Source of the DNA: Flavobacterium cupriresistens
Lineage (GTDB): Bacteria; Bacteroidota; Bacteroidia; Flavobacteriales; Flavobacteriaceae
Length of the DNA: 64,000 nucleotides
Reading direction: 5' to 3'
Assembly: GCF_020911925.1 (NCBI RefSeq)
Contig: NZ_CP087134.1
Span: forward strand, 2,728,001 to 2,792,000
A program made the position numbers and the translations under genes. The stretch's first letter is position 1. Each line of letters opens with the position of its first letter. Below the pieces are notes generated by a model. It had not been told where the DNA came from. It saw only the letters and a list, made by a program, of their open reading frames with translations, and searched no databases. Of this stretch, positions 6,796 to 14,526 are shown piece by piece.

Positions 6796-8550
6796 ATGAA
6801 AATTAATTTCCAGAATAAATCCATCATTTTGATAATGCTGTTTGCTTTTCAGCTTTCCTTTTCGCAGAAGAAAGAGGAGAGCATTGGGACAGAAACGGTA
6901 AATGTTGTAAAACCTTATTCACCAACCATTTCGGATGCCTTTAAAGTAAAAGAAACTCCTTCGCTTGACGATTCAGGAAATCAACCTAAAGAAACGATCA
7001 AATACAGTATTTTATCGGTTCCGGTGGCTTCGACTTTTACACCCTCAAAAGGAAAAGCAGAAGGGGTTGAAAAATCAAAACAAGAACGTTTATTCAGTAA
7101 TTACGCCACTGTTGGAGTTGGAAATTATGGAACTCTAAACGGGGAATTGTTTGTAACGCAGGATCTGGGAAACAGCGATTATATTACTGGAATGTTTCGC
7201 CATCATTCTTCTCAGGGAGGTATCAAGGATATAGAATTAAATGATGAATTTTACGACACAGCCTTAAATGTTGGGTATGGTGTTGACAATCGCGATATGT
7301 CCTGGGCGGTAGATTTAGGATACCAGAATCAAATATACAATTGGTACGGTTTACCTGCCGAATTTGGTGCGACATTGCTTCCGGGTGAGCGTTTTGATTT
7401 AGTGAATAAAATGAATCCAAATCATTCTTATAATACCATTTCTTTAGGTGGAAATATTGAATTTAATGAAGGCATTTTTAGCAAAGTAAAAGCAAGGTTT
7501 ACTAATTTCTCAGATAGTTTTTCTTCTTCTGAAAACCGGTTTTATGTAAAGCCGTCGTTTAAAGTAGAGGTAATGGATCAATCTATAAATACAAATGTTA
7601 TTATTGATCATGTAAGCGGCTCGTTCGAAAATAATTATGCCCGTGATAATACGAAGCCTTTAAAATACAGCCTTACCAATTTTGGAATTGAACCTAGTTT
7701 TGTGATTCTGGAAAATGATTGGACCTTGGAATTAGGAGCCGGAATATTTTATGGTTTAGATTCTGAAAACAGTGGAAATAAGTTTTATCTGTATCCAAAA
7801 GTAAATGCTTCGTATAAATTAGTAGGGGATTTGATGATTTTTTATACGGGAGTAAATGGTGGACTAAATCAGAATTCCTATGCTGATTTTGTGACCGAAA
7901 ATCCGTTTTTATCACCAACGCTCGCTGTGAAACCTACAAACAATCAATACACTGTTTTTGCAGGTTTAAAAGGAAAATTGGCTAATAATATCAATTACAA
8001 CATTACAGGATCTTATTTGAATGAAAAAGACAGAGCCTTGTTTAAAAGTAATGATTATACAGAAGTTATCTCAAATGAAAACTATGCTTACGGAAACTCT
8101 TTTGGAGTGGTTTATCAGGACCTGAGAACATTCCGTTTTTATGGAGAATTAAAAGCTGATTTTTCCGAGAATGTCAGTTTTGGAATCAATGGAACTTTCA
8201 ATAGTTACAAAAATGACGGCCAATTAGAAGCATGGAATTTACCAACGGTTAAATTGAGTTCTAATCTGGATGTTACTATTACAAAACAGTGGTACGCCGG
8301 TTTAAATGTTTTTTATGTGGGAGATCGTAAAGACATGCAGACTAATTTGACTATTGCACCCGTTGCAACTCCGGTTACTTTAAAAAGCTATTTTGATGCC
8401 AATGCTCACGTAGGGTATAAGTTCAGCGAACGTTTGACTTTCTTTTTGAAACTTAATAATATTGGTAATCAGGCCTATGAAAAATGGCTAAATTATCCGG
8501 TGCAGGGCTTCCAGGTTTTAGGAGGAGGAAATTATAAGTTCGACTTTTAA
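6796..8550 (+). CDS. TonB-receptor-like outer-membrane barrel without evident plug domain
   Basis: A 584-residue protein with a signal peptide (cleavage near FSFSQ, residue 23). It then has a segment with VNVVKPYSPTISDAF and a long run of alternating amphipathic strands ending in GGNYKFDF, the C-terminal aromatic typical of barrel insertion by BAM. The barrel region resembles the last two-thirds of TonB-dependent receptors. I find no recognisable plug: no RG, GG or IEVLRGP-type motif precedes the barrel. It is therefore shorter than the usual 700-1000 residues. It may be a porin-like or structural barrel acting with the TPR protein upstream. Substrate unknown. Confidence 0.8.
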   Translation: MKINFQNKSIILIMLFAFQLSFSQKKEESIGTETVNVVKPYSPTISDAFKVKETPSLDDSGNQPKETIKYSILSVPVASTFTPSKGKAEGVEKSKQERLFSNYATVGVGNYGTLNGELFVTQDLGNSDYITGMFRHHSSQGGIKDIELNDEFYDTALNVGYGVDNRDMSWAVDLGYQNQIYNWYGLPAEFGATLLPGERFDLVNKMNPNHSYNTISLGGNIEFNEGIFSKVKARFTNFSDSFSSSENRFYVKPSFKVEVMDQSINTNVIIDHVSGSFENNYARDNTKPLKYSLTNFGIEPSFVILENDWTLELGAGIFYGLDSENSGNKFYLYPKVNASYKLVGDLMIFYTGVNGGLNQNSYADFVTENPFLSPTLAVKPTNNQYTVFAGLKGKLANNINYNITGSYLNEKDRALFKSNDYTEVISNENYAYGNSFGVVYQDLRTFRFYGELKADFSENVSFGINGTFNSYKNDGQLEAWNLPTVKLSSNLDVTITKQWYAGLNVFYVGDRKDMQTNLTIAPVATPVTLKSYFDANAHVGYKFSERLTFFLKLNNIGNQAYEKWLNYPVQGFQVLGGGNYKFDF

Positions 8551-9252: not shown

Positions 9253-10821
9253 ATGAGAATATTTTTTGTTTTGATGGTTTTGTTTTGCATGGATTTAACT
9301 GCTCAGAATACAGAATTTAAAGTTTACGATAATGGACTGATTTATTCTGAAAACTCAGTTGGAAAACTGAAGCATATTGTTGATTCGTTGAATTTGAAAT
9401 TTAAAGTATGTGATTTCAAGAAGATCTTTCTTTCCTCTGCCCAGACAAAAGTCAATTTTATTGAGATAAACAAATCCGATGCATCAGAAGCTAAAAAAGA
9501 TCTGGAAAATAATATATCGTATTCCGACTTTAAAACGAAGTATCCAAAGGCTACTTTTGATGAGAACTTAGTTGTGATAAAATCTCACTACACTAATTAT
9601 GAACATGTGAAAAATGTAAATTTTTCAAGCTTAGAATTAGGGGAAAGGCAAAGACAGACAATAAGTTCTAGTCAAAATGAGATAGATTCTTATAACAATA
9701 ATTTTAAAGGTAAATGGGTTTTTGAATATCAGGAAAAAACAAAGTATTCAAAGGAGTCATTACGTGCTTTTTATTTTATAGAAGAATTTAAGTCAAAACC
9801 AATTGTAGATAAGTATGCTAAATTAATTCAGTATGCGGATTGTTTAATAGACACAACTGCGCAAATTTTTTATAAAGATGCAAAAAACTCAGGTGTTAGA
9901 TATTTCGATAGTTTGCCAAACAAGGCAACAAAATTTAAAGAGTATGTTAATAATACTTTGAAAAAGCCAAGTTTTAGCTATGAGAAATTATCTCTTATTT
10001 ATGGTTATGACGAAATGGCTTTCGATGCTGATTCAATGAAAAAGAATAAAGAGAATATAGCGAATAAAGAGCTTGCAGAAAAAGAATATAAGGTTTACCA
10101 AAAGAATTTAGAAAAATGGGAATCCGTAAAATTTACTCGATTAGATTCTATAGAAAAGGCTGATAAAAATTTTGATTTAATGTTGAATGAAGCATTTATT
10201 GAAGCGAAAATAAATAAATCCTCAGACGAAGAATTTGAAGAATATGTAGGTCGTTTTATTGGAAAAAGGGAAGAACTCGAATTAAAAAGAAACAGGCGGG
10301 TTATTGGTGGCTGTAGTATGGATGACAGCCCAAGAGTACATGCTTTGAATATTGCAATGCTTTCTGCAGAAACTACAAAATGGGAAATTTTTCTTCGATC
10401 TCACCTTAATATAATGAATGATCGTTTTGACAGGGCTAGTGACGGGAGTTATGCTCAAGGGGCAAGAAATACGTATATCAAGGAGATTGAGGTTTTAGAT
10501 ATAAATGTTTTAGATTTGATTTTAGGGATATCTTTAAGAATAGAAAATCCATCCGAGAACCATTATTTCTCCAATATAAATAGGGTTGGGCGTGCTCTTT
10601 CTGAAAGTTCCAATCCTACAGTAGTGGAAATGAATTTGCTAAATATGATAGTTGATACTGATTTGGACGACTATAATAGAGTATTAATGTATTATTTGTT
10701 TGATAATTATAATTACAATTTGAAAGATGAAAATGCAAAAAAGCTAAATCAATCTAAATTGCAAGTGGCTGTTTCTAAATTGCCAGACTATATTTCTTCC
10801 AGAATTATTTTTAAAAATTAA
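9253..10821 (+). CDS. Exported protein of unknown function
   Basis: A 522-residue protein beginning with a clear signal peptide (MRIFFVLMVLFCMDLTAQ), so it is exported. The mature part is Lys- and Glu-rich and mostly helical by composition, with a charged stretch around residues 255-345 (KKNKENIANKELAEKEYKVY and on) that could be a coiled coil. After about residue 350 a different, less charged region starts, with GGCSMDDSPRVHALNIAML. I recognise no family or catalytic motif. Only 21 bases separate it from the GreA-like gene, so the two may be cotranscribed. Its AT-rich, lysine-heavy composition differs somewhat from its neighbours and suggests a fast-evolving or lineage-specific gene. Confidence 0.7.
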   Translation: MRIFFVLMVLFCMDLTAQNTEFKVYDNGLIYSENSVGKLKHIVDSLNLKFKVCDFKKIFLSSAQTKVNFIEINKSDASEAKKDLENNISYSDFKTKYPKATFDENLVVIKSHYTNYEHVKNVNFSSLELGERQRQTISSSQNEIDSYNNNFKGKWVFEYQEKTKYSKESLRAFYFIEEFKSKPIVDKYAKLIQYADCLIDTTAQIFYKDAKNSGVRYFDSLPNKATKFKEYVNNTLKKPSFSYEKLSLIYGYDEMAFDADSMKKNKENIANKELAEKEYKVYQKNLEKWESVKFTRLDSIEKADKNFDLMLNEAFIEAKINKSSDEEFEEYVGRFIGKREELELKRNRRVIGGCSMDDSPRVHALNIAMLSAETTKWEIFLRSHLNIMNDRFDRASDGSYAQGARNTYIKEIEVLDINVLDLILGISLRIENPSENHYFSNINRVGRALSESSNPTVVEMNLLNMIVDTDLDDYNRVLMYYLFDNYNYNLKDENAKKLNQSKLQVAVSKLPDYISSRIIFKN

Positions 10822-10991: not shown

Positions 10992-12668
10992 ATGTGTGGA
11001 ATTGTATGTGCCTTTGATCTGAAGCAAAAAGCAGAAAGTTTAAGACCTCAAGTTTTAGAAATGTCTAAAATCATCCGTCACCGTGGACCGGACTGGAGCG
11101 GTATTTATAGCAACGATAAAGCAATTTTATCTCATGAGCGTTTGGCAATTGTAGATCCGGCTTCGGGGAAACAGCCTTTGTTTACAGCAGATAAAAAATT
11201 GGTTTTGGCAGCAAACGGTGAAATCTATAACCACAGAGAATTACGCAAACAATTTGAAGGAAAATACGACTTTCAAACCGAAAGTGATTGCGAAGTTATT
11301 TTAGCACTTTACAAGGAAAAAGGCCCTCATTTTATTGACGAAATGAACGGAATCTTCGGATTTGCAATTTATGATGTAGACAAAGATGAGTACTTTATCG
11401 CTCGTGATCATATGGGAATTATTCCGTTATACATTGGTTGGGATCAGGACGGAACTTTTTATGTAGCATCAGAATTGAAAGCTTTAGAAGGGTATTGTAC
11501 AAAAATTGAATTGTTTCCTCCGGGACATTATATGACCAGTAAAGACGGTGAATTTGTACAATGGTATAAAAGAGACTGGACGGACTACGATGCGGTAAAA
11601 GACAACGAAACAAGTATTCCTGAAATTAAAAAAGCATTGGAAGCAGCCGTTCACAGACAACTGATGAGTGATGTTCCTTACGGAGTTTTACTTTCCGGAG
11701 GTTTAGATTCGTCTATTACTTCAGCAGTAGCTAAAAAATATGCACAAAAACGTATTGAGTCAGACGATACTACAGATGCCTGGTACCCACAATTGCACTC
11801 TTTTTCAGTTGGACTGGAAGGTTCACCTGATTTGGCAGCTGCGAGAGTTGTTGCAGATCATATCGGAACTATTCACCATGAAATTAAATTTACAATTCAG
11901 GAAGGCTTAGATGCAGTTCGTGATGTGATTTATAACTTAGAAACCTATGATGTAACTACAGTGAGAGCATCGACTCCGATGTGGTTGATGGCGAGAGTTA
12001 TTAAATCAATGGGGATCAAAATGGTCCTTTCGGGAGAAGGAGCTGATGAATTGTTTGGAGGTTATTTATACTTTCATAAAGCACCAAACGCAAGAGAATT
12101 TCACGAAGAAAACGTACGCAAATTAGGGAAACTACATATGTACGATTGTTTGCGTGCCAACAAAAGTCTGGCAGCTTGGGGAATCGAAGGACGTGTACCA
12201 TTTTTGGATAAAGAATTTATGGATGTTGCCATGCGCATCAACCCACAAGATAAAATGATCAACAAAGAACATCCGATGGAAAAATGGGTGGTTCGTAAAG
12301 CTTTTGAAGAAATGTTGCCCGAGAGTGTGGCGTGGAGACAAAAAGAACAATTTTCTGATGGAGTAGGATACAGCTGGATTGATACTTTGAAAGAAGTAGT
12401 AGCAAGAGAAGTTTCAGATGAACAATTGGCAAATGCCAGATTTAAATTTCCGTTGCAGACGCCAACTTCAAAAGAAGAATATTACTACCGTTCTATTTTT
12501 GCAGAACACTTCCCAAGTGATGCAGCAGCATTATGTGTACCTCAGGAAGCCAGTGTAGCATGTAGTACCAAAATCGCTTTGGAGTGGGATGAGGCTTTCA
12601 AAAACATGAATGATCCATCAGGAAGAGCTGTTGCCAGCGTTCATGATGATGCCTACGCTAAAGCATAA
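10992..12668 (+). CDS. asnB: Asparagine synthase (glutamine-hydrolysing), intact copy
   Basis: A 558-residue class II glutamine amidotransferase. After removal of Met the N-terminal Cys1 is the glutaminase nucleophile (MCGIV). Arg49 (SHER), Asn74-Gly-Glu76 (NGEIYN) and Asp98 (ESDCEV) form the glutamine site, numbered exactly as I recall for the E. coli enzyme. The synthetase domain has the PP-loop SGGLDS at 235-240 and SGEGADELFGG near 345-355. It converts aspartate, glutamine and ATP to asparagine, glutamate, AMP and PPi in the cytosol. A second, degenerate paralogue follows 241 bases downstream with its own promoter. Length and motifs are normal; confidence is high. Confidence 0.97.
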   Translation: MCGIVCAFDLKQKAESLRPQVLEMSKIIRHRGPDWSGIYSNDKAILSHERLAIVDPASGKQPLFTADKKLVLAANGEIYNHRELRKQFEGKYDFQTESDCEVILALYKEKGPHFIDEMNGIFGFAIYDVDKDEYFIARDHMGIIPLYIGWDQDGTFYVASELKALEGYCTKIELFPPGHYMTSKDGEFVQWYKRDWTDYDAVKDNETSIPEIKKALEAAVHRQLMSDVPYGVLLSGGLDSSITSAVAKKYAQKRIESDDTTDAWYPQLHSFSVGLEGSPDLAAARVVADHIGTIHHEIKFTIQEGLDAVRDVIYNLETYDVTTVRASTPMWLMARVIKSMGIKMVLSGEGADELFGGYLYFHKAPNAREFHEENVRKLGKLHMYDCLRANKSLAAWGIEGRVPFLDKEFMDVAMRINPQDKMINKEHPMEKWVVRKAFEEMLPESVAWRQKEQFSDGVGYSWIDTLKEVVAREVSDEQLANARFKFPLQTPTSKEEYYYRSIFAEHFPSDAAALCVPQEASVACSTKIALEWDEAFKNMNDPSGRAVASVHDDAYAKA

Positions 12669-12776
12669 AGGGGTTTTGTTTATTAATTAGTATCAGGAAA
12701 GACGTTCTTAATTGTAAGGACGTTTTCTTGGTTTAAGATAATAAATTGTATTATTTCAGCTACTTGAGATAATAAT

Positions 12777-12809
12777 TTGGGAATTATTTAACTTTCTTTT
12801 TTATATTTG
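12777..12809 (+). promoter_or_regulatory. Bacteroidota-type promoter before the second asparagine synthetase
   Basis: TTG at 12777-12779 and TATATTTG at 12802-12809 are separated by 22 bases. This fits the Flavobacterium consensus TTG, 17-23 nt, TAnnTTTG. It would leave a leader of about 95 bases before the ATG at 12910, so the second asnB paralogue can be transcribed independently of the first. Confidence 0.6.
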
Positions 12810-12909: not shown

Positions 12910-14526
12910 ATGTCCGGAATATTAGCTGTTATCGGTAAAGGAAAAGATCCCCAGCTCGTTAGAGCGCTTTCTGAAAGAATGTCGCACCGTGGTCCTGATG
13001 AAAGAGGTTATCAGATCATGGAAAATGGAAGCATTATTTGTCACGAGAGTTTGTCGATTATAGATCTTAATTCAGGGAAACAACCTATTCAGGGGACTAA
13101 TAAAGCCTGGATGGTGCACGATGGTGAAATTTATAATTACCAGGAATTAAGAAATGGAATTTTGAAAGACCACACTTTCAGAACAAAATCAGACTCAGAA
13201 GTGATCGTGCATTTGTACGAAGAGTATGGATATGATTTTTGTAACAAATTAGATGGTGACTGGACTTTCGTAATCGTTGACGGTGATGATTATATTGCCG
13301 GCAGAGACCCATTGGGAGTAAAACCGCTGTATTATGGTTTGGACGAAAGAGGAAGAATTTACTTTTCTTCAGAAATGAAGCCAATTGCAGATCAATGCAA
13401 AACATTTTCAACTTTCCCTCCGGGGCATTATTATACTCCAAAAACAGGTTTTGTGAAATATTACCGTCCGGAGTATGAGGATTATGAAAAAGCAGGTCAG
13501 GATCTTGAATTGTCTTTGATCAGAGAAAGTCTTACAGCAGCGGTGAGTAAACGTTTGATGAGTGAAGTGCCCATTGGAGCACTGCTTTCCGGTGGTTTGG
13601 ATTCTTCTTTAATTGCGGCCATCACTTCCCGACTGAAAGCTGACAAAGGAAAAAAACTGAAAACTTTTTCGATTGCTTTAGATGCGAATGCACCCGATGC
13701 TATTGCTGCCAGAAAAGCGGCTGAATTTTTGGGAACAGACCATCATGAAGTTCATTTTTCAGTAGCAGAAGGAATTGGACTTTTAGAAAAAATAATTTTT
13801 CATATCGAAACCTACGATATCATATCGGTTAGAGCCAGTGTGCCCATGTACCTGTTGTCTAAAGCGATTGCCGATAAAGGAGTAAAAGCAATTCTTTCCG
13901 GAGAAGGTGCTGACGAAATCTTTGGAGGACATTTGTATTTCAGAAATGCTCCATCAACAGAAGAATTTCAAAAGGAAAGTATCGAGAGAGTCCAAAAATT
14001 ATTTACGGCCGATTTATTGCGTGCCGATAAATCTACAATGGCAAATGGTTTAGAAACAAGAATTCCGTTTTTAGACCGAAACTTTCTGGATGTTACGATG
14101 TTGATTAAACCCGAAGAAAAACAGCCTAAAACATACGAGGGAATCGAAAAATACATCTTAAGAAAAGCATTTGATACCCCGGAAACGCCTTATTTGCCAT
14201 CGGATATTTTATGGCGTCAAAAAGAACAATTCTCGGATGGAGTGGGGTATAATTGGATTGATGAATTAATCGAATATTGTGCGACTCAGGTTTCTGATCA
14301 GCAATTAGAAGGAGCAAATACAGAGTTTCCGTATAATTCTCCTACTACCAAAGAAGCCTATTTGTACCGTTCCATTTTTCATAAATATTATCCACAGGTT
14401 AGTGCGGCGCAAACCGTTCGAAAATGGATACCAAAATGGCAGGAAAATCAAGACCCAAGCGGACGTGCAAATGCAGCCCATTTAAAGGCAGCTGTTGCAA
14501 CAACAAACTCCGGCGCAGCAGTGTAA
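12910..14526 (+). CDS. Asparagine synthase paralogue with degenerate glutaminase site
   Basis: A 538-residue homologue of the preceding AsnB over its full length. The synthetase half looks functional: PP-loop SGGLDS at 227-232, SGEGADEIFGG, and the C-terminal QKEQFSDGVGY shared with the first copy. The glutaminase half is altered at three key positions. The nucleophile is Ser (MSGIL), the Arg that binds the glutamine carboxylate is Ser47 (CHES), and the Asn of NGE is Asp71 (HDGEIYN). Gly-Glu of that motif and Asp95 remain. Known AsnB Cys1-to-Ser enzymes lose glutamine use but keep ammonia-dependent synthesis. This copy is therefore likely ammonia-dependent, or repurposed to another acceptor. 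The coding frame is uninterrupted, so it is not a pseudogene. Confidence 0.92.
   Translation: MSGILAVIGKGKDPQLVRALSERMSHRGPDERGYQIMENGSIICHESLSIIDLNSGKQPIQGTNKAWMVHDGEIYNYQELRNGILKDHTFRTKSDSEVIVHLYEEYGYDFCNKLDGDWTFVIVDGDDYIAGRDPLGVKPLYYGLDERGRIYFSSEMKPIADQCKTFSTFPPGHYYTPKTGFVKYYRPEYEDYEKAGQDLELSLIRESLTAAVSKRLMSEVPIGALLSGGLDSSLIAAITSRLKADKGKKLKTFSIALDANAPDAIAARKAAEFLGTDHHEVHFSVAEGIGLLEKIIFHIETYDIISVRASVPMYLLSKAIADKGVKAILSGEGADEIFGGHLYFRNAPSTEEFQKESIERVQKLFTADLLRADKSTMANGLETRIPFLDRNFLDVTMLIKPEEKQPKTYEGIEKYILRKAFDTPETPYLPSDILWRQKEQFSDGVGYNWIDELIEYCATQVSDQQLEGANTEFPYNSPTTKEAYLYRSIFHKYYPQVSAAQTVRKWIPKWQENQDPSGRANAAHLKAAVATTNSGAAV

Follow-up and report, generated by a model that had tools for sequence, protein, structure and literature searches.

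The window, by which we mean the whole 64,000-nucleotide stretch of Flavobacterium cupriresistens DNA analysed here, carries two asparagine synthetase B (AsnB) genes in tandem, and the second of these, asnB2 (positions 12910..14526, + strand), encodes a paralogue with a dead glutamine site. Comparison with its orthologues indicates that the change in this site is old and fixed, and is not decay. The explanation we favour, with slightly less than even confidence, is that AsnB2 may be an ammonia-using isozyme beside the glutamine-using AsnB1, in parallel to AsnA and AsnB of E. coli.

The glutamine site of AsnB2

The asnB2 frame is intact and full-length in the ORF list and its translation (538 aa). 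At the glutamine site, Ser2 (codon TCC, 12913..12915, +) replaces the Cys nucleophile, Ser47 (AGT, 13048..13050, +) replaces the glutamine-binding Arg49 of E. coli AsnB, and Asp71 (GAT, 13120..13122, +) replaces Asn74 of the same enzyme. These replacements had been noticed from the letters of the window alone, and both the codons and the alignments to AsnB1, human ASNS and E. coli AsnB (1ct9) agree with that reading. In the phmmer match to 1ct9 (E 9.3e-139), Ser47 falls on Arg49 and Asp71 on Asn74; this alignment begins at residue 22, and the Cys position was therefore read from the alignments to AsnB1 and human ASNS instead. As also originally described, the PP-loop SGGLDSS (13588..13608, +) and the SGEGADE motif (13897..13917, +) are kept.

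AsnB2 thus lacks the N-terminal Cys nucleophile of AsnB and the Arg49 and Asn74 of its glutamine pocket, and retains the PP-loop and the residues of the aspartyl-AMP site, with deviations at two positions, 305 and 341. The two-domain Ntn/PP-loop fold is predicted to be intact (a first structure prediction, from alignment A2, had a pLDDT of 57.8 and was set aside). The protein exceeds the curated cut-offs of NF006949 (676.2 versus 499 bits) and TIGR01536 (426.5 versus 267.1 bits), and a Pfam search of it did not find the AsnA domain, PF03590.

Residue classes among the orthologues

Our survey covers 190 loci, every one of which contains AsnB2: 80 from GTDB contigs, 29 and 80 from genomes of the genus, and the window itself. 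Together they hold 157 distinct AsnB2 proteins. The sample is one of closer relatives, as the GTDB part consists of the best 80 of 284 relatives, nearly all named Flavobacterium, and the genus part of the best 30 of 150 listed matches (one being the window) followed by 80 from the remaining 120, with a bias to higher identities. Classes are named by residues 2, 47 and 71, and the AsnB1 control row has been removed from the Cys count. Ser/Ser/Asp (SSD) is found in 86 of the 157 proteins, Cys/Arg/Asn (CRN, or Cys-type) in 62, Gly/Arg/Asn (GRN) in six, Gly/Arg/Asp (GRD) in two and Ser/Gly/Asp (SGD) in one, so that only nine depart from the two main combinations; residue 2 is Ser in 87 and Gly in eight. 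Ser2, Ser47 and Asp71 are conserved together across a clade, and random variation among orthologues, the refuting outcome named at the outset, is ruled out. A sequencing error, which the original prediction had already discounted, is likewise ruled out by the 86 proteins sharing the triple. The TCC codon at residue 2 is found only in the asnB2 of the window; the other 86 Ser2 proteins have TCT.

A family scan at E <= 1e-150 gave matches in 15 of 349 genomes. Of these genomes 12 do not belong to the genus, and their orthologues (one partial, 368 aa) all have Cys, Arg and Asn at the three positions, together with Thr305 and Tyr341. The same residues are found in AsnB1, human ASNS and nine IMG/VR rows of alignment A3, and E. 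coli AsnB agrees where it is aligned. These agreements make Cys the ancestral state.

In a tree built without the trait columns, SSD, SGD and GRN form one clade (support 100/100) and GRD forms a separate one (100/100). The GRN proteins are nested within SSD with support of 99/97, but the AU test does not reject SSD and SGD as a single clade (p 0.086 for the whole protein, 0.445 for the glutaminase part and 0.206 for the synthetase part), in which case GRN, placed beside the Ser clade, may have lost the nucleophile on its own. We therefore count at least two losses of the nucleophile on this tree, one in the SSD, SGD and GRN clade and one in GRD, and not three. The change of Asn71 to Asp is found in both the SSD and the GRD lines.

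The synthetase site

The PP-loop core is invariant in all 157 proteins, as are D231, D335 and the equivalents of E348 (E332), D384 (D368), R387 (R371), K449 (K438) and R325 (R308, which we take to be R325 in the literature numbering of AsnB). E348, D384, R387, K449 and R325 have active-site roles in AsnB. The statement that the rest of the synthetase domain was kept holds for these residues and fails at two others: Thr305 has become Ile (13822..13824, +) and Tyr341 has become His (13930..13932, +), both conserved in AsnB. The two changes are present in all 93 SSD, SGD and GRN proteins, in contrast to the Cys-types, which have Thr305 in 59 of 62 (Ile in three) and Tyr341 in 62 of 62; the GRD proteins keep both ancestral residues. 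Residue 341 aligns with Y357 of E. coli AsnB, and the counterparts of residue 305 are human T337 and one of the E. coli AsnB threonines studied by mutagenesis. Changes at the 305-equivalent Thr impair known enzymes, and human T337I is a variant of ASNS deficiency. Within the PP-loop itself (codons 227–233), SGGLDSS is replaced by SGGLDTS in 40 of the 86 Ser-types and in the SGD protein, and in none of the 62 Cys-types.

Selection on the two domains

The original prediction took the three changes in one pocket as a sign of relaxed or redirected selection there. Relaxation is contradicted by the data. Median pairwise omega in SSD is 0.054 for the glutaminase domain, equal to that of the Cys-types (0.056), and 0.084 for the synthetase domain (Cys-types, 0.050), with values in GRN of 0.042 and 0.046, respectively; as dS is near 1, these absolute values are rough. 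Tree-based counts of amino acid changes per site give a glutaminase-to-synthetase domain ratio of 0.63 for SSD, against 0.94 for the Cys-types as a whole and 0.87 for those with AsnB1 in the locus. The SSD ratio is thus 0.67 relative to all Cys-types (95% site bootstrap 0.51–0.85) and 0.73 relative to those with AsnB1 (0.56–0.94). For AsnB1 the corresponding domain ratio is 1.71 (55 sequences) or 1.44 (22 sequences). The two analyses place the shift differently, omega in a faster synthetase domain and the change counts in a slower glutaminase domain, but they agree that the dead glutaminase domain is not relaxed; by the change counts it is the more constrained half of the protein. Both domains are under strong purifying selection, and relaxed selection, or a pseudogene, is ruled out.

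The tandem with asnB1 and its surroundings

Upstream of asnB2, asnB1 (10992..12668, +) encodes a normal glutamine-type enzyme of 558 aa with Cys2, the Arg and the Asn in place (motifs MCGI, SHERL and NGE), which scores 945.6 bits against NF006949 and matches 1ct9 with E 3.4e-256. The two proteins are 46% identical, and asnB2 begins 241 bp 3' of asnB1 on the same strand. Between them lies a terminator-like hairpin of the intrinsic type (12699..12726, +; z -5.49), and a crude terminator motif is found in the intergenic regions of 69 of 83 SSD, 6 of 6 GRN and 4 of 9 CRN loci. Intergenic alignment also revealed a -7-like element, TATATTTG (12802..12809, +), as a putative asnB2 promoter; it matches the Bacteroidota -7 element, consensus TAnnTTTG. 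It occurs in 74 of 83 SSD intergenic regions (4.4 expected from shuffles), in the single SGD and all six GRN regions, and in one of nine CRN regions. This enrichment between the genes in SSD, SGD and GRN, with its rarity in the Cys-types, suggests that asnB2 is probably transcribed from its own promoter.

On the 3' side, asnB2 is followed by an M16 peptidase gene and gyrB, and its neighbours do not form a biosynthetic cluster. No Rfam family reached the gathering threshold between 8500 and 15000 of the window. Farther 5' of asnB1, two + strand ORFs (6796-8550, 584 aa, and 9253-10821, 522 aa) gave no match in Pfam, NCBIfam or PADLOC at E 0.001. In the host genome (5.74 Mb, a single contig), AsnB1 and AsnB2 are the only AsnB proteins found; one extra weak match to PF00733 (E 1.3e-4) lies in a 401-aa frame, and a similar one is present in each of seven other genomes checked. 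The genome has AsnRS, and a genome search found neither AsnA (PF03590) nor GatB.

Pairing with other asparagine routes in the genus

We searched 299 genomes of the genus, 110 of which were typed for AsnB2 class. AsnB1 occurs in all 48 SSD genomes, in the single SGD genome and in all six GRN genomes, in neither of the two GRD genomes, and in 20 of 53 Cys-type genomes. All 57 dead-type genomes have another probable glutamine-dependent route to asparagine, namely AsnB1 in 55 and a GatA-like protein with a GatB-AspRS fusion in the two GRD genomes. The same pairing is seen in 20 of 53 Cys-types (Fisher p 1.6e-14, to be read with the caution that related genomes are not independent and that the 57 represent only two or three independent losses). 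AsnA was not found in any of the 57. Of the 78 SSD, SGD and GRN loci whose upstream sequence extends for 2.2 kb or more, 77 have AsnB1 5' of asnB2 on the same strand at a distance of 202–325 bp; at the one exception (L026, with the same protein as G099) it is on another contig. The AsnB1 beside a dead AsnB2 starts with MCGI in 61 of 61 cases where the start lies within the locus (54 SSD, 1 SGD and 6 GRN), a count that leaves out 29 further SSD copies truncated where the retrieved sequence stops. One AsnB1 match in the genus, at G124:C12:34048-35715, contains one in-frame TAG.

Among the typed genomes, GatB is confined to the two GRD ones. On the side where AsnB1 stands in the window, that is 5' of asnB2, these two carry a GatA-like gene and, by domain search, a GatB-AspRS fusion of 1109–1110 aa with a bacterial-type AspRS (L192:11044-14376 and L193:14970-18299, both − strand), separated from asnB2 by 0.85 kb (G282) or 6.2 kb (G269); gyrB follows directly 3' of asnB2. 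The G282 fusion is above the curated cut-offs for GatB (352 versus 314.8 bits) and bacterial AspRS (634 versus 374), and the adjoining GatA-like proteins are below that for gatA (436 and 438 versus 481.1 bits). Both genomes also have AsnRS. We had considered the GRD protein, as the sole AsnB-like protein of its genome, to be proof of ammonia use, but dropped this argument because the GatA-like protein and the GatB-AspRS fusion could supply asparagine. In G269 a Lamassu-like defence island (L193:11171-14668, −) lies between asnB2 and the fusion, with LmuA, LmuC and LmuB matches in two separate frames.

GatB_N is found in 38 of the 299 genomes, in 34 of them in open frames of at least 1069 aa, and the domain search covered the two GRD cases. 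Of these 38 genomes, AsnB1 accompanies GatB in G040 and G074 alone, and a typed AsnB2 does so in just the two GRD genomes. AsnA is found in 13 of the 299, all of them lacking AsnB1, GatB and a typed AsnB2 (AsnB2 matches in this group reach 4.1e-19 at best). An ammonia-type route by itself therefore seems to be enough for life in this genus, and from these distributions its routes to asparagine look mutually exclusive.

A possible ammonia-fed isozyme

The nucleophile is absent from the whole SSD, SGD and GRN clade, and in SSD the Arg and Asn are gone as well; with all three lost together, normal use of glutamine by AsnB2 is very unlikely. Laboratory Cys1 mutants of E. coli AsnB and human ASNS do not use glutamine and retain ammonia activity. 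An enzyme that is ammonia-dependent or redirected, as first suggested, would be the likely outcome of losing the glutamine site across a clade. We propose that AsnB2 may still be active as an ATP-dependent amide synthetase with the AsnB fold, but one that no longer draws on glutamine. The C-terminal site would activate aspartate, or a close analogue, as its beta-AMP ester, and ammonia would enter unaided, probably via the old glutaminase pocket and tunnel; such a role as entrance would explain why the glutaminase domain is kept. With a glutamine-fed AsnB1 and an ammonia-fed AsnB2, the host, in which AsnA is missing, would have a two-isozyme system. We favour this proposal because the synthetase site is kept, purifying selection is strong and another probable glutamine-type route is constantly present. 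Two observations pull the other way: T305I and Y341H are fixed in the Ser clade at otherwise conserved positions, and one would expect the glutaminase domain to drift in an enzyme that simply uses ammonia, when here that domain is the more constrained.

These two observations keep a pair of rivals serious. The synthetase site may now serve a different acceptor or amine, T305I and Y341H having altered its specificity and the product being another amide. We regard this as unlikely but well worth attention: the two changes separate the Ser clade from nearly all Cys-types, and AsnB2 matches the beta-lactam and carbapenam synthetases, which, like TsnB9 within the same fold, act on other substrates. 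It sits less well with the retention of the equivalents of E348, D384, R387, K449 and R325, with neighbours (asnB1, M16 peptidase, gyrB) that are not a biosynthetic cluster, and with the independently dead GRD group, which retains T305 and Y341. A main role for AsnB2 as partner or regulator of AsnB1, for instance in a mixed dimer through a conserved contact of the N-terminal domain, would account for the unusual constraint on the dead domain relative to the synthetase domain, for the near-constant position of AsnB1 directly upstream and for its presence in all 55 typed SSD, SGD and GRN genomes. We nonetheless consider it rather improbable, since the PP-loop and catalytic residues of a partner need not be invariant, the terminator-like and promoter-like signals speak against a fixed 1:1 operon, and the GRD genomes do without AsnB1.

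Far less probable is a glutaminase that still works, on glutamine or another amide, with Ser as its nucleophile. Other Ntn hydrolases can use Ser as their nucleophile, and AsnB2 keeps Asp95, the equivalent of a residue holding the glutamine amino group, but the Arg49 and Asn74 equivalents are also lost, GRN and GRD have a Gly that is unable to act, and C1S in AsnB is reported to be inactive with glutamine. We give hardly any credence to the view that AsnB2 is a redundant copy heading for loss. AsnB1 does make glutamine-dependent synthesis redundant, and in dead-type genomes AsnB2 diverges faster (about 77–88% identity to the window's copy, versus 96–98% for AsnB1), yet no listed genus match has an internal stop, median omega is 0.04–0.08 in both domains and the active-site residues are invariant. 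As a further and unlikely elaboration of the ammonia-fed isozyme, the pocket may have been converted rather than simply disabled, the changes of Arg to Ser and of Asn to Asp rendering it acidic and thereby able to gather ammonium at the tunnel mouth or to sense a cationic ligand, with T305I and Y341H retuning the synthetase; Flavobacterium would then have made an "AsnA" from AsnB repeatedly, on every occasion alongside another, glutamine-dependent route to asparagine.

Comparison with known systems and significance

Compared with E. coli AsnB and human ASNS, AsnB2 is without Cys1, Arg49 and Asn74 and differs at residues 305 (T to I) and 341 (Y to H). It resembles the laboratory Cys1 mutants of these enzymes in that the nucleophile is replaced and the synthetase site left, but unlike them it is natural and fixed in a clade, has lost two more pocket residues and is changed at two synthetase residues. 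In its proposed role as the ammonia-fed partner of a glutamine-fed AsnB it would be like AsnA (PF03590), which belongs to another Pfam family and is absent from the host genome. Beta-lactam synthetase and the carbapenam synthetase CarA, which carry out intramolecular lactam chemistry and belong to natural-product clusters, are about 20% identical to AsnB2, and its matches to them (1jgt, E 2.3e-13; 1q15, E 1.2e-14) are far weaker than that to AsnB; they are not its close kin.

In a long-studied enzyme, AsnB2 is a natural experiment that asks which purpose a glutamine amidotransferase domain serves after losing the ability to use glutamine. As Cys-type and dead-type orthologues are about 80% identical, they can be compared directly, and exchanges between them can test what the pocket and residues 305 and 341 contribute. 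For annotation the case is a warning, as AsnB2 passes the cut-off of an "asparagine synthase (glutamine-hydrolyzing)" model although its glutamine site is gone. It also belongs to a wider setting in the genus, where the routes to asparagine (AsnA, AsnB, and the GatA-like protein with GatB-AspRS) seem to replace each other.
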